Part shown: piece after piece, positions 8,872 to 15,398 of the stretch
Layout: each line of letters opens with the position of its first letter
Numbering within the stretch: the stretch's first letter is position 1
Position numbers and translations under genes: made by a program
The notes under the pieces: model-generated
What the model was told of the DNA's origin: nothing
The model's database searches: none
Seen by the model: the letters and a program-made list of their open reading frames with translations, nothing else
Source: Halogranum amylolyticum
GTDB taxonomy: Archaea > Halobacteriota > Halobacteria > Halobacteriales > Haloferacaceae
Length of the DNA stretch: 64,000 nt
Assembly: GCF_900110465.1 (NCBI RefSeq)
Contig: NZ_FODV01000005.1
Location: 248,001-312,000, forward strand
Direction of reading: 5' to 3'

Positions 8872-8994
8872 ACCGAGCGCGTCGGCTGGCGGGTGACGGT
8901 GTCACGTCGGACGTCGATCGACCGCGTCGCACCTGACGTCGCTCGCGAGTCGAACCCGCAGGAGTATTCACCGCGCGTTCCCAACCGGCCACCA

Positions 8995-10752
8995 ATGAGT
9001 GCGCCGAACCGCAACGTCCTGTGGGCTCGCACCTTCGTCGACGAACTGGCGACGGCGGGCGTCTCGGCCGTCTGTATCACGCCCGGGAGTCGGTCGACGC
9101 CGCTGACGACGGCGTTCGACGAACACGACGACGTCCACGTCTTCTCGCATCTCGACGAGCGAGCGTCGGCCTTCTTCGCGCTCGGCCGCGCCCGTCGGAC
9201 GGGGAAAGTGACGCCGCTGGTCTGTACCTCGGGGACGGCCGCGGCGAACTTCCACCCCGCCGTCGTCGAGGCGTTCCAGTCGCGTGTCCCGCTACTGCTC
9301 CTGACGGCCGACCGACCACCGGAACTCCGCGACTCGGGTGCCAACCAGACCATCGACCAGGAGAAGCTCTACGGCGACGCCGTCCGATGGTACAAGGATA
9401 TGCCCGAACCGGAGGCGACGGAGCGGAAACTGCGGATGCTCCGGACCACCGCCGACCGGGCGCTCTCGGAGGCGACGGGCACGCCCTCGGGGCCGGTGCA
9501 TCTCAACTTCCCGTTCCGAAAACCGCTGGAACCGACGCCCGTCGCCGGCGACGTCCCGGCAGACCTCGACACGGAGGCCGTCCTCGGGCGGGAGGACGAC
9601 CGCGAGTACGTGAAGACGACGAGCGGCGTCCCCGAACTCGACGACGACCGTCTCCGACGGCTCGCCGAGGAACTCGAAGTCGAACGCGGTCTGATCGTCG
9701 CTGGTCCCGCGGACGCACCCGGCGTCGACCACGAGGCGATCACGGCGCTCGCCCACGCGACGGGGTTCCCCGTCGTCGCCGACCCGCTCTCGGGACTCCG
9801 TTTCGGCGGTCACAACCGCGTGACGACGGTGCTCGGCGGCTACGACGCCTACCTCGACGAGCGCGTGACCGACGAGTGGCCCGACCCGGAGGTCGTGTTC
9901 CGGTTCGGGGCGTCGCCGACCTCCAAGCCGCTCCGAAAGTATCTCGCCCGCAGCGACGCCCGCCAGTTGGTCGTCGACCCCGCCGGCGAGTGGCGGGAAG
10001 CCGAGTACGCCGCCACCGACCTCGTCGTCGCCGACCCCTCGCGACTCGCCGGGACGCTCTCGCGGATCGTCCGCGCCCCGAAGGACGCTTCGTGGACCGA
10101 ACGCTGGCAGGCCGCCGAGGAAGCTCATTGGAACGCCGTCGACGACGCGGTCGAGAACGGCGAGTCGTTCGAGGGTCGTGTGCTCGCAGACGTCGCCGCC
10201 GTCGCCCCCGAACCCTCCACCGTCTTCGTCTCGAACAGTATGCCCGTCCGCGACGTGGACCGCTTCGCCCGCCCCGCCGCGCGGAATCTGACTGTTCTCG
10301 GTAATCGCGGGGCCAGCGGCATCGACGGCATCACCTCGACGGCGCTCGGCGCCGGGAGCGCGACGACGGACGACCTGACGCTCGTCACGGGCGACATCGC
10401 GTACTACCACGACCTCTCTGGACTCCTGGCGGTCGGTCGATGCGACGTGGACGCCACCATCGTCGTCGTCAACAACGACGGCGGCGGCATCTTCCACATG
10501 CTCCCCATCGAGGACTACGACCCGCCGTTCACGGGGCAGTTCAAGACGCCACACGGGCTGGAGTTCGAACCGACGGGCGACCTCTTCGGGATGGCGTTCG
10601 CCCGCGTCGACGTCGAAGGGTTCCGCGACACCTACGCCGAGGCCGTCGCCAGCGAAGGGACGCACGTCGTCGAGGTGACGAGCGACGCCGAGGCGAGCCA
10701 CCGCGTGCGGGAGTCGCTGCAGGAGCAGGTCGTCGACGCGCTGACCGAGTAA
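8995..10752 (+). CDS. menD: 2-succinyl-5-enolpyruvyl-6-hydroxy-3-cyclohexene-1-carboxylate synthase (MenD)
   Basis: Thiamine-diphosphate enzyme that adds the succinyl-semialdehyde unit of 2-oxoglutarate to isochorismate, the first committed step of menaquinone synthesis. The 585 residues have the N-terminal pyrimidine-binding part with CITPGSRSTPLT and the conserved Glu of SHLDERASAFFALG, then the C-terminal PP domain with the GDIAYYHDLSGL and NNDGGGIFHMLP metal-binding region. The ATG at 8995 gives the usual N-terminus (NVLWARTFVDEL). The isochorismate synthase gene menF, often next to menD, is not here. Confidence 0.95.
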   Translation: MSAPNRNVLWARTFVDELATAGVSAVCITPGSRSTPLTTAFDEHDDVHVFSHLDERASAFFALGRARRTGKVTPLVCTSGTAAANFHPAVVEAFQSRVPLLLLTADRPPELRDSGANQTIDQEKLYGDAVRWYKDMPEPEATERKLRMLRTTADRALSEATGTPSGPVHLNFPFRKPLEPTPVAGDVPADLDTEAVLGREDDREYVKTTSGVPELDDDRLRRLAEELEVERGLIVAGPADAPGVDHEAITALAHATGFPVVADPLSGLRFGGHNRVTTVLGGYDAYLDERVTDEWPDPEVVFRFGASPTSKPLRKYLARSDARQLVVDPAGEWREAEYAATDLVVADPSRLAGTLSRIVRAPKDASWTERWQAAEEAHWNAVDDAVENGESFEGRVLADVAAVAPEPSTVFVSNSMPVRDVDRFARPAARNLTVLGNRGASGIDGITSTALGAGSATTDDLTLVTGDIAYYHDLSGLLAVGRCDVDATIVVVNNDGGGIFHMLPIEDYDPPFTGQFKTPHGLEFEPTGDLFGMAFARVDVEGFRDTYAEAVASEGTHVVEVTSDAEASHRVRESLQEQVVDALTE

Positions 10753-10809: not shown

Positions 10810-11304
10810 ATGCCCTCCACTGCCTGGAAAGTCGCCACCGGCACGGTGATAACGCTCGTCCTCGCGTACGCCGTCGTCGTCGCCGGACAGATACTGCTCG
10901 GGGTCGTTGCCGCGACGCTCGTCTTTCTGGTGTCGTGGCTCGTCGCGTACGCCCGTGAGTCCGACGCCATCCCACCGCTGGGAAATCGACGACTCGCACT
11001 GACGTCTGGACTGTCGGTCGTCGTACTCGCGTACTCGTTTCTCGTCGCCGGGCAGATACTGCTCGGTCTGTTGGCCGTCGTCGCAATCTTCGCAGTTGCC
11101 TACGGTCACTCGATACTCACACGCTACGGCTATCCTGCCTCGCTCGGCCGAACACGAACCATCGTCGTCGTCGTACTCTCCGTGCTCATTCTAGTGTATG
11201 CGCTCGTCGTCGCCGGACAGATTCTCCTCGGGTTCATCGCTGTGTTCCTGCTCTACGTGACGGCGTGGCTGACGAGTCCGACCGGGCCGCTGCTGAACGA
11301 GTGA
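10810..11304 (+). CDS. membrane protein made of three tandem 55-residue repeats
   Basis: The 164-residue protein consists almost wholly of three tandem units. The octapeptide VAGQILLG occurs at residues 24-31, 79-86 and 134-141, exactly 55 residues apart each time, inside long hydrophobic stretches. Each unit probably forms a membrane hairpin or two membrane segments joined by a short polar linker (ARESDA; HSILTRYGYPASLGRTR). The family is not recognised. It lies 57 bases after menD and 48 before another membrane protein, on the same strand as the men genes, so it may serve quinone synthesis or the membrane in which quinone is used. That is inference from position only. Confidence 0.8.
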   Translation: MPSTAWKVATGTVITLVLAYAVVVAGQILLGVVAATLVFLVSWLVAYARESDAIPPLGNRRLALTSGLSVVVLAYSFLVAGQILLGLLAVVAIFAVAYGHSILTRYGYPASLGRTRTIVVVVLSVLILVYALVVAGQILLGFIAVFLLYVTAWLTSPTGPLLNE

Positions 11305-11352: not shown

Positions 11353-11835
11353 ATGCCGCCGAACCGCGGGACGGACCTCTCGACCGAACAGCGACAGCTC
11401 CGGCCGCGCAAGGAAGAAAGCAGCTTCAGCAAGTGGCTCCAAGACGTGTTCGACGCGACCGCCGAGGTGCTCGTATTCACGATTCCGATACTCGGCGTGG
11501 TGTTTCTCACCGGCGACGTCGAGGTGACGTTCATCCTGCTCGCTGCACTCTGCTCGCTGGTCTTGGGCGTCGCTATCCAGCGTCACCGCCCGCTCGGTCT
11601 TCCGTGGCCGGGGATGACGCCACTTCTCGTCCTCGTCCGACTCGTCGTCTACAACGTCGCACTCGCGGCCGGACTGGCGCTCGGCGGACTGCTGTTCGCC
11701 GACCCGATCGTCGGCTTCTCGTGGGTCGAACAGCCCATCCTCGGCCCGAGTCTCATCGCCGCCCTCGTCGGCGTCGTCGCCGTCGTCGGCTTCCCCTACC
11801 TCGCGCGTGCGCTGGGGCACGTCCGACACGGGTGA
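11353..11835 (+). CDS. small integral membrane protein, unknown
   Basis: The 160-residue protein begins MPPNRGTDLSTEQ, with a charged N-terminal 30 residues that include a KEESSFSKWLQDVFDATAEV helix. Four hydrophobic segments follow: LVFTIPILGVVFL, FILLAALCSLVLGVAI, LVLVRLVVYNVALAAGLALGGLLF and a C-terminal LIAALVGVVAVVGF. I do not recognise the family. It sits between the triple-repeat membrane protein and menB on the same strand, so the two may be part of the menaquinone transcription unit. The start at 11353 is chosen over an upstream ATG at 11326 because the preceding residues look non-coding. Confidence 0.68.
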   Translation: MPPNRGTDLSTEQRQLRPRKEESSFSKWLQDVFDATAEVLVFTIPILGVVFLTGDVEVTFILLAALCSLVLGVAIQRHRPLGLPWPGMTPLLVLVRLVVYNVALAAGLALGGLLFADPIVGFSWVEQPILGPSLIAALVGVVAVVGFPYLARALGHVRHG

Positions 11836-11935: not shown

Positions 11936-12850
11936 ATGGTTTCGGACCTCTTCGACCCCGACCGCTGGGAGGCGGTCGAGGCGTTCGACTTCGACGACGT
12001 CACCTACCACCGAGCGGTCGACACCGCGGCCGTTCGCATCGCCTTCGATCGCCCGGAGGTGCGCAACGCCTTCCGCCCGGGGACGGTCGACGAACTCTAC
12101 ACGGCGCTGGACCACGCCCGCAAGCAGGCGAACGTCGGCTGCGTGCTCCTCACCGGCAACGGCCCGTCCCCGAAAGACGACGGCTGGGCGTTCTGTTCCG
12201 GCGGCGACCAGTCCGTCCGTGGCGGGTCGGGCTACGAGTACCGCGACGACGACGAGGCGAGCGAAGACGACGACCCCGCGGTCCGCGAGGCCAAAGCGGG
12301 GCGTCTCCACATCCTCGAAGTCCAGCGCCTGATTCGGTTCATGCCGAAACCCGTCGTCGCCGTCGTCCCCGGGTGGGCCGTCGGCGGCGGCCACTCGCTG
12401 CACGTCGTCTGCGACCTGACGCTCGCCTCCGAGGAGCACGCGAAGTTCCTCCAGACCGACCCGGACGTCGCCTCCTTCGACGGCGGGTTCGGCTCTGCCT
12501 ACCTCGCCCGGCAGGTCGGCCAGAAGAAGGCCCGGGAGATCTTCTTCCGGGGGAAGACCTACTCTGCAGAGGAAGCAGTCGACATGGGGATGGCCAACGA
12601 GGCGATTCCGCACGAGGAGTTGGAGGAGGTCGCCCTGGAGTGGGCCGACGAGATGACCTCGAAGTCGCCGATGGCGATGCGGATGCTCAAGTACTCCTTC
12701 AACGCTATCGACGACGGGATGGTCGGCCAGCAGGTGTTCGCCGGCGAGGCGACGAGATTAGGATACATGACCGAGGAGGCTCAGGAGGGTCGAGACGCCT
12801 TCATGGAGAAGCGAGAGCCAGAGTTCGACAAGTTCCCCTGGCACTACTAA
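11936..12850 (+). CDS. menB: 1,4-dihydroxy-2-naphthoyl-CoA synthase (MenB)
   Basis: Crotonase-fold enzyme that closes the second ring of o-succinylbenzoyl-CoA to give dihydroxynaphthoyl-CoA. The 304-residue product has the MenB signatures WAFCSGGDQSVRGG, VVAVVPGWAVGGGHSLHVVCDLT (oxyanion hole), the FDGGFGSAYLARQVGQKKAREI stretch and a C-terminal FDKFPWHY that reaches the active site. An acidic insert DDDEASEDDD follows the GYEYR segment, as is common in halophiles. It is followed by a T-rich stretch and a hairpin that may end transcription before menA. Confidence 0.95.
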   Translation: MVSDLFDPDRWEAVEAFDFDDVTYHRAVDTAAVRIAFDRPEVRNAFRPGTVDELYTALDHARKQANVGCVLLTGNGPSPKDDGWAFCSGGDQSVRGGSGYEYRDDDEASEDDDPAVREAKAGRLHILEVQRLIRFMPKPVVAVVPGWAVGGGHSLHVVCDLTLASEEHAKFLQTDPDVASFDGGFGSAYLARQVGQKKAREIFFRGKTYSAEEAVDMGMANEAIPHEELEEVALEWADEMTSKSPMAMRMLKYSFNAIDDGMVGQQVFAGEATRLGYMTEEAQEGRDAFMEKREPEFDKFPWHY

Positions 12851-13349: not shown

Positions 13350-14285
13350 ATGAGTACGCAGGAGATCTCCCGGACGAAGGCGTGGGTGATGGCCGCCCGG
13401 CCGCAGACGTTGCCGGCGGCCGCCGCACCCGTCGTCGTCGGCGTCGGTCTCGCGCTGCACGACGACGTGTTCGCCTTCCTGCCGGCACTGGCGGCGTTCG
13501 TCGGCGCGGCGCTGATCCAGGTCGGCACGAACTTCGCGAACGACTACTACGACGCCGTACAGGGAGCCGACACCGAGGATCGACAGGGGTTCACCCGCGT
13601 CACCTCCTCGGGGCTCATCGAGGCGAGCGAGGTGAAGCAGGCGATGTATCTCACCTTCCTCGCGGCCATCGTCGTGGGGAGTTACTTGGTCTACGTCGGC
13701 GGCGTCCCCATCCTCGTGATCGGGCTACTGTCCGTCGCCAGCGGCATCGCCTACACCGGTGGCCCGTACCCGCTGGGCTACCACGGTCTCGGCGACCTGT
13801 TCGTCTTCGTCTTCTTCGGCGTCGTCGCCGTCGCCGGAACCTACTACGTGCAGGCCGCCTCGGTGCTCGCCGACCCGTTCCCGGTCGGCGTCCCGCCGGA
13901 GACGCTCCCGCTCGTCGCGGTCGTCGCCAGTCTCCCCGTCGCCGCGCTCTCCACGAACATCCTCGTCGTCAACAACGTCCGCGACAAGGAGGAGGACACC
14001 AAGACCGGCAAGCGCACGCTCGCGGTGCGCTTCGGATACACGTTCAGTCGCGTCCAATACGTGGGTCTGCTCGCGCTCGCCTACGCCGTCCCGCTGTACT
14101 TCTGGGTGAGCGACCAGTTCGACTGGACGGTGCTCCTCCCGTTCATGTCGCTGCCGCTCGCGGCGAAGGTCGCGAAGACGGTCGCCACCCGGACCGACGG
14201 CGAGGCGCTCAACCCCGCACTCGAACAGACCGGCCAACTGCTCGCGCTCCACGCGCTGCTGTTCGCCGTCGGGATGGGGGTCTGA
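13350..14285 (+). CDS. menA: 1,4-dihydroxy-2-naphthoate polyprenyltransferase (MenA)
   Basis: UbiA-family integral membrane prenyltransferase that attaches the polyprenyl chain to dihydroxynaphthoate. The 311 residues contain about eight membrane segments, the first Asp-rich site NFANDYYDAVQGAD and the second NNVRDKEEDTKTGKRTLAVRFG, both needed for magnesium-diphosphate binding. The N-terminus AWVMAARPQTLPAAAAPV is typical of MenA. The stop codon abuts the menC ATG, so the two are probably translated together. Confidence 0.95.
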   Translation: MSTQEISRTKAWVMAARPQTLPAAAAPVVVGVGLALHDDVFAFLPALAAFVGAALIQVGTNFANDYYDAVQGADTEDRQGFTRVTSSGLIEASEVKQAMYLTFLAAIVVGSYLVYVGGVPILVIGLLSVASGIAYTGGPYPLGYHGLGDLFVFVFFGVVAVAGTYYVQAASVLADPFPVGVPPETLPLVAVVASLPVAALSTNILVVNNVRDKEEDTKTGKRTLAVRFGYTFSRVQYVGLLALAYAVPLYFWVSDQFDWTVLLPFMSLPLAAKVAKTVATRTDGEALNPALEQTGQLLALHALLFAVGMGV

Positions 14286-15398
14286 ATGGACGCACTCGAC
14301 CTCCGGGAGTTCGCACTCGACCTCCGGACACCGCTCGGAACCGCGAAGGGCGAGATCACCGAGCGTCGCGGCCTGCTCGTCGGCGTCGAACGCGAGCGCG
14401 CCGACGGCAGCCGTGTCCGTGGCGTCGGCGAGGCTGCGCCGCTCACACCGTGGACCGAGTCCTACGACGACTGTGCCGCATCGCTCCGAGCGCTGTCCGA
14501 GGAGGAGGATAGAGACGAAGGCGGTGACGGGGACGAAGACCACACGGGCGACAGCGGCGGCCTGCTCGACGGTCTCGGCCCGGCCGCCCGCCACGGCGTC
14601 ACGCTCGCGGCGACCGACGCGGCGGCACGGGCGGCCGACGTCCCGCTGGCCGAGTACCTCGCGACTCCGGCCGCAACGGACGACCCGGCCGAGATCGTCC
14701 CCGTCAACGGGACCGTCGGTGACGGGTCGGTCGAGGAGACCGTCACGGCCGCCGAAGCCGCGGTCACCGACGGCTTCGACTGTCTCAAACTGAAGGTCGG
14801 CGCGCGCGACGTCGACGCCGACCTCGACCGACTCCGCGCCGTCCGCGAGGCCGTCGGCGACGAGGTGACGCTCCGGGCCGACGCGAACGGGGCGTGGACG
14901 CGCGAGGAGGCCGACCGAGTCGTCGACGTGCTGGCGACGCTCGACTTCGCGTACGTCGAACAGCCGCTCGCGGCCGACGATCTCGCGGGCCACGCCGACC
15001 TCCGCGGCCGCGGCGTCGACGTCGCCCTCGACGAGTCGATCAACGGGGCGAGCGAGAGCGAGTGGCCCCGTCCCATCGCCGACTACGCCGACGTAATCGT
15101 CCTCAAACCGATGGCCCAGGGCGGGCCGCGGGCGACGGTCGAGCTCGCCCGACACCTCCGGTCGCAGGGCGTCACCCCCGTCGTCACTACGACCGTCGAC
15201 GCCGTCGTCGCCCGTACCGCCGCGGTTCACGTCGCCGCCGCAGTGCCGGACGTCCCTGCGTGTGGGCTAGCGACGGCCGACCTGCTCGCCGACGACCTCG
15301 CGGACGACCCCTGCCCCGTCGTCGACGGCTCCGTCTCGGTTCCGCAGGGGCCCGGACTCGCGGGCGACGCGTTCGACTCGCTGCTCCGACGGGAGTGA
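14286..15398 (+). CDS. menC: o-succinylbenzoate synthase (MenC)
   Basis: Enolase-superfamily dehydratase that aromatises the MenD/MenH product to o-succinylbenzoate. Key residues of the 370-residue protein are the KLKVG lysine motif (CLKLKVGARD), the metal ligands in LRADANGAW, YVEQPL and ALDESI, and the second lysine in VLKPMAQGG. An acidic, Gly-rich insert (EEEDRDEGGDGDEDHTGDSGG) lies in the N-terminal capping domain. It begins directly after the menA stop. Another enolase-superfamily member (18971-20212) in this window is a sugar acid dehydratase and not a second MenC. Confidence 0.92.
   Translation: MDALDLREFALDLRTPLGTAKGEITERRGLLVGVERERADGSRVRGVGEAAPLTPWTESYDDCAASLRALSEEEDRDEGGDGDEDHTGDSGGLLDGLGPAARHGVTLAATDAAARAADVPLAEYLATPAATDDPAEIVPVNGTVGDGSVEETVTAAEAAVTDGFDCLKLKVGARDVDADLDRLRAVREAVGDEVTLRADANGAWTREEADRVVDVLATLDFAYVEQPLAADDLAGHADLRGRGVDVALDESINGASESEWPRPIADYADVIVLKPMAQGGPRATVELARHLRSQGVTPVVTTTVDAVVARTAAVHVAAAVPDVPACGLATADLLADDLADDPCPVVDGSVSVPQGPGLAGDAFDSLLRRE

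Follow-up and report, generated by a model that had tools for sequence, protein, structure and literature searches.

Gene context of P0001

The window, which is the whole 64,000-nucleotide stretch of Halogranum amylolyticum DNA analysed here, contains a menaquinone (men) locus with the order menD-X-ORF169-menB-menA-menC on the + strand, where X encodes the 164-residue protein P0001 (10810 to 11304). MenD (8893 to 10752; TIGR00173, 485 bits, cut-off 244) is located directly upstream, with a gap of 57 bp, and menB (11936 to 12850; TIGR01929, 399 bits, cut-off 343) and menA (13350 to 14285; NF004751, 395 bits, cut-off 264) lie further downstream. With menD, menB and menA all above their NCBIfam cut-offs, the placement of P0001 in a men locus by the first-pass annotation, a reading of the letters and open reading frames by a model, is confirmed. 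The last gene of the locus (14286 to 15398) encodes a menC-like protein of the enolase superfamily (PF13378, 142.7 bits). Against o-succinylbenzoate synthase models it scores below cut-off, and its name rests on superfamily and context (PMC8305020).

Between P0001 and menB is a second unnamed small membrane protein, ORF169 (P0003; 11326 to 11835 on the + strand, with a true start possibly at 11353), for which family-model searches returned no known family. Its homologues are found in the same locus, and in several genera the protein (RGTDxSTEQRQLRPREE...) is again encoded between menD and menB. ORF169 relatives are also present at loci that lack the gene related to P0001 (L080, L095 and L096). 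For the Haloferax genes that separate menD from menB, HVO_1466-1468, no literature was found.

P0001 itself scores above cut-off against nothing in Pfam, NCBIfam, PHROGs or PADLOC, which rules out a known family from these collections as its explanation, and no PDB chain matched it. The first-pass statement that no described family has this form thus holds for the four collections. The closest approach is a weak two-helix match to SLATT_5 (NF033631 / PF18160), a SMODS- and SLOG-associating two-TM effector, over residues 87-137 or 92-137 (19 bits, E 8e-4 in NCBIfam). However, this falls well below the SLATT_5 cut-offs (19 bits against 60 in NCBIfam, 6.1 against 29.5 in Pfam), and none of the SLATT_5 partners (SMODS, SLOG or reverse transcriptase) is found beside P0001, whose neighbours are men genes and housekeeping-type enzymes. 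Two enzymes of haloarchaeal menaquinone synthesis, EC 4.2.99.20 and 3.1.2.28, are missing (PMC8305020). P0001 does not look like either of them because it has no soluble domain, and it was rejected on that ground as a candidate for the missing MenH or DHNA-CoA thioesterase.

The internal repeat

The octapeptide VAGQILLG occurs at residues 24, 79 and 134 of P0001 (10879 to 10902, 11044 to 11067 and 11209 to 11232), a spacing of exactly 55, and translation of the 164-residue frame bears out this part of the first-pass description. A degenerate DNA pattern for the octapeptide, the search for which had been proposed at the same time, matches three times in the whole genome, each time inside P0001. 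The cores of the three units, placed by a PSSM scan, span residues 11-47 (10840 to 10950, with the first octapeptide as its turn at residues 24-31), 66-102 (11005 to 11115) and 121-157 (11170 to 11280). In a MAFFT alignment the block of unit 2 corresponds to a gap in two-unit relatives and is thus the extra unit, while unit 3 is the C-terminal unit common to the two-unit homologues. The protein ends in a conserved cap, AWLTSPTGPLL (residues 152-162; 11263 to 11295), of which A152, W153, T155, P157 and P160 are invariant or near-invariant in an alignment of 12 homologues.

A lag of 55 gives the single outstanding self-match of P0001 (36 of 109 residues identical), with a mean BLOSUM score of 1.14; the highest value was 0.39 among 5000 plain shuffles and 0.51 among another 5000 in which the hydrophobic/polar pattern was kept. 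A 7-residue word appears three times in one of the 5000 pattern-keeping shuffles and an 8-residue word in none, and chance origin of the repeat is thereby ruled out. The description of three exact 55-residue repeats survives only in part: the octapeptide and the spacing are exact, but whole units share just 16, 17 and 20 of 54-55 residues pairwise (29-37%), the octapeptide being the best-kept part. Since the units are this divergent, and only 72-82 of 162-165 bases (44-51%) are identical in their DNA, the duplication is old. A recent duplication is excluded by the same DNA divergence and by the three-unit layout that orthologues have in common. The repeat in P0001 is genuine, old and intragenic. 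In a tree of the units (37 columns) the only visible grouping is that of the N-terminal units, with a support of 72, and the tree as a whole is too weakly supported to date or order the duplications.

Relatives and unit number

Relatives were gathered by an order-wide protein search of 295 genomes and from menD-menB intervals chosen by menD alone. Orthologues of P0001 occupy the same place in two other Halogranum: that of Halogranum rubrum is 65% identical with the same gene order, and that of another genome placed in the genus is 52% identical at the same locus position. Between P0001 and the H. rubrum orthologue, pN (0.21) is about half of pS (0.43), which indicates purifying selection. No copies of P0001 were found on plasmids.

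The one- and two-repeat relatives that the first-pass annotation had proposed to seek both exist among haloarchaeal homologues, and the men-locus relatives of P0001 mostly have two units or one. Three-unit relatives occur in Halogranum and genus g7. The two-unit form is spread over several genera of the same family and is also present in families f12 and f4, and one-unit relatives occur in f4 and others. The one-unit forms include uncharacterised small haloarchaeal proteins (MPST...YSLIIVQQILLG...LERIATALE) that carry the same kind of unit as P0001 and are often encoded between menD and menB, but differ from P0001 in consisting of a single unit followed by an amphipathic C-terminal helix (LERIATALE). 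In f4 (L127, L128, L131, L158, L159, L194 and L197) the gene is found between menD and menB, in the opposite orientation to menB, and so is not co-transcribed with it. In genus g2 (L201, L202, L203 and G259:C146) one-unit relatives are located far from menD. At L069 (G150:C1, about 1538724-1539047) an in-frame TGA divides a two-unit gene into frames of 50 and 70 residues, which may mark a pseudogene or a sequencing error.

Conservation of the motif is uneven. In the third Halogranum the octapeptide has degraded to IAGNILLG, FGQTIWVG and IVGQLLIG, and genus g7 (L061, L062, L068, L079 and L091) has kept three units in the men locus while replacing AGQILLG, for example with YEPLAG or QRPLMG. The possibility raised against the original reading, that homologues might reveal a recent and unpreserved repeat, is therefore borne out only for the octapeptide; the repeat itself is old.

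By our own tally of non-LonB family matches in the 295 genomes, about 27 of 42 lie within about 2 kb of menD or menB, 3 lie within about 5 kb and about 12 are elsewhere, where chance would give such closeness in roughly 0.3%. The unit profile found such a gene in 13 of the 80 intervals that had been selected on menD only. The family is defined here by one to three units with a polar turn and by a gene between menD and menB, and P0001 has both features. The gene is not essential to the menaquinone pathway, since in many haloarchaea (for example at L085, L087 and L093) menD and menB occur with no such gene between them. P0001 may have no role specific to the men pathway and be a small membrane protein of general function, present in the men operon only as a passenger, for instance one connected with membrane stress or co-expression. 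The many men loci without the gene, the dozen or so members away from menD and menB, the fast drift of the motif and the variable unit number are all consistent with this. However, linkage to menD and menB has been kept across several families despite inversions and rearrangements, and P0001 is under purifying selection; such a passenger is possible, but on the unlikely side.

Probable hairpin topology of the unit

Column statistics were taken from 55 units aligned without gaps, including a subset of 50 well-aligned units. The units were placed by a profile seeded on AGQILLG, so conservation at those columns is partly built in, but the polar substitutions at the turn (E, R, N, H and Pro) are not. 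Column 17, the Gln of the motif, is polar in 84% of the 55 units (Q in 29, N in 6, E in 5 and R in 3), 40% have a polar residue at column 16, and Pro is found at column 18 in 8 of 55, while the remaining columns from 1 to 35 are polar in at most 7%. Gly is found at column 21 in 48 of 55 units and Tyr at column 10 in 42; a small-xxx-small pair (G21/A25) is present in 32 of the 50 well-aligned units. The turn sits between two uncharged stretches of about 17 residues, within an uncharged stretch of about 40 residues overall, and tolerates an occasional charged E or R. A polar centre that accepts proline and charge in such a stretch points to a turn between two helices. The unit commonly has K or R on either side of it, which under the positive-inside rule fits an even number of membrane crossings per unit.

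The first-pass annotation had proposed that each unit is a hairpin. The profile with its polar turn, the pattern of charges and the independent two-helix parallel in LonB described below make a hairpin of two helices per unit very probable. The structure prediction that had also been proposed came out differently: AlphaFold2, run on a two-sequence alignment, drew one helix of about 45 residues per unit and no hairpin, at low confidence (pLDDT 65, pTM 0.33). This model is given little weight, and it was too poor for a fold search.

The accompanying suggestion of a trimeric pseudo-symmetry fared worse. Three units of equal length could form a small channel with threefold pseudo-symmetry, but the variation in unit number disfavours this, relatives with one or two units being the more common in the men locus, and no conserved polar residues line the helices. 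Such a channel is extremely unlikely.

Relation to LonB

Archaeal LonB is described as having two transmembrane helices in its AAA domain (PMC4864567), and it carries a segment that matches the P0001 unit: GYSLIIAGQILLGILAAGIIYL. The LonB hairpin (TIGR00764, lon_rel) resembles a unit of P0001 in its 36-residue uncharged stretch, central [IV]AGQILLG turn and flanking Arg, and is 44-52% identical to unit 1 over about 44 residues. Both ends of the LonB insert join the cytoplasmic AAA domain, and P0001, with the same sequence pattern, shares the central GQ turn within a predicted two-helix hairpin. Outside Halobacteria, the GQ turn appears as QGQWLMG in one LonB that was read. In LonB the hairpin is single and forms part of a protease, whereas P0001 lacks both AAA and protease domains; neither Pfam nor NCBIfam matches it to LonB, and the true LonB of the genome scores 895 bits.

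The unit profile matches LonB hairpins with E about 1e-5, and among the 8281 ORFs of the fetched DNA only family members and LonB fall below E=1. Of the first 55 loci, 29 were verified as LonB. The 30 loci with an AGQxLLG-type DNA match are mostly LonB, with some family members and a few unrelated frames, and the only four matches outside the order but within the phylum are all LonB genes. When the DNA pattern for the turn was relaxed, its matches were no commoner than those of the reversed control, so DNA patterns alone are not informative. A second LonB-like ORF, L003 (G000:C35:182290-182415), was found in addition to one on C25; this second copy may be foreign, the assembly being flagged as 10.8% contaminated.

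The likeness extends over 37-44 hydrophobic residues and could reflect either shared origin or convergence. One reading is that P0001 is a partner or mimic of the LonB membrane ring, its hairpins intercalating with those of LonB so as to recruit or regulate the protease. Across the order LonB is the only protein outside the family to match the unit, and the [AG]GQxLLG-type matches of the source genome are three in P0001 and one in LonB. The genes are not neighbours, however, and so short a hydrophobic match could be convergent, which leaves a partnership very improbable. Less probable still, with very little to commend it, is that the unit derives from the LonB membrane anchor, freed, multiplied and put into the men operon, where it would link LonB at the membrane with men enzymes or with their turnover.

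LonB also bears on whether P0001 might bind or shuttle menaquinone or a prenylated intermediate, with a lipid-facing groove formed by the hairpin bundle and polar contacts provided by the conserved Tyr and Gln. The men locus would suit such a role, as would the presence of the Tyr in 41 of 50 units and of some polar residue in the Gln column in 46 of them, and the seven-residue spacing of Y20 and Q27, which puts them on one helix face. But this Tyr and Gln are also present in the hairpins of LonB, for which no quinone role is known. E, R, N and H are all accepted at the Gln position, as would be expected of a turn, and genus g7 has kept the gene while losing the motif. Quinone binding is accordingly improbable, though less so than the LonB readings.

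Possible role in menaquinone synthesis

P0001 is most likely, if speculatively, a membrane anchor or scaffold with an accessory part in menaquinone synthesis. Three two-helix hairpins in tandem would give this integral membrane protein six short transmembrane helices, with the AGQ turns at the outer face and both ends and the Arg-bearing linkers on the cytoplasmic side. It belongs to a haloarchaeal family whose members have one to three units, P0001 having three, and whose genes mostly lie in the menaquinone locus. It would probably be a non-catalytic accessory that the hairpins hold in the membrane. The cytoplasmic linkers and the conserved C-terminal LTSPTGPL cap could then dock soluble MenD and MenB near membrane-bound MenA. 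Gene neighbourhood is what suggests docking, which is conceivable but rather doubtful; the explanation as a whole, a three-hairpin membrane protein acting as a docking accessory, is put forward tentatively, at somewhat short of even chances.

P0001 is probably a real but modest accessory protein. It is not a new class of channel, and its interest lies in the family and in the tie to the men locus. The analysis defines an unnamed family of haloarchaeal membrane proteins tied to menaquinone synthesis, and provides a natural series of one, two and three hairpins for the study of unit duplication in membranes.
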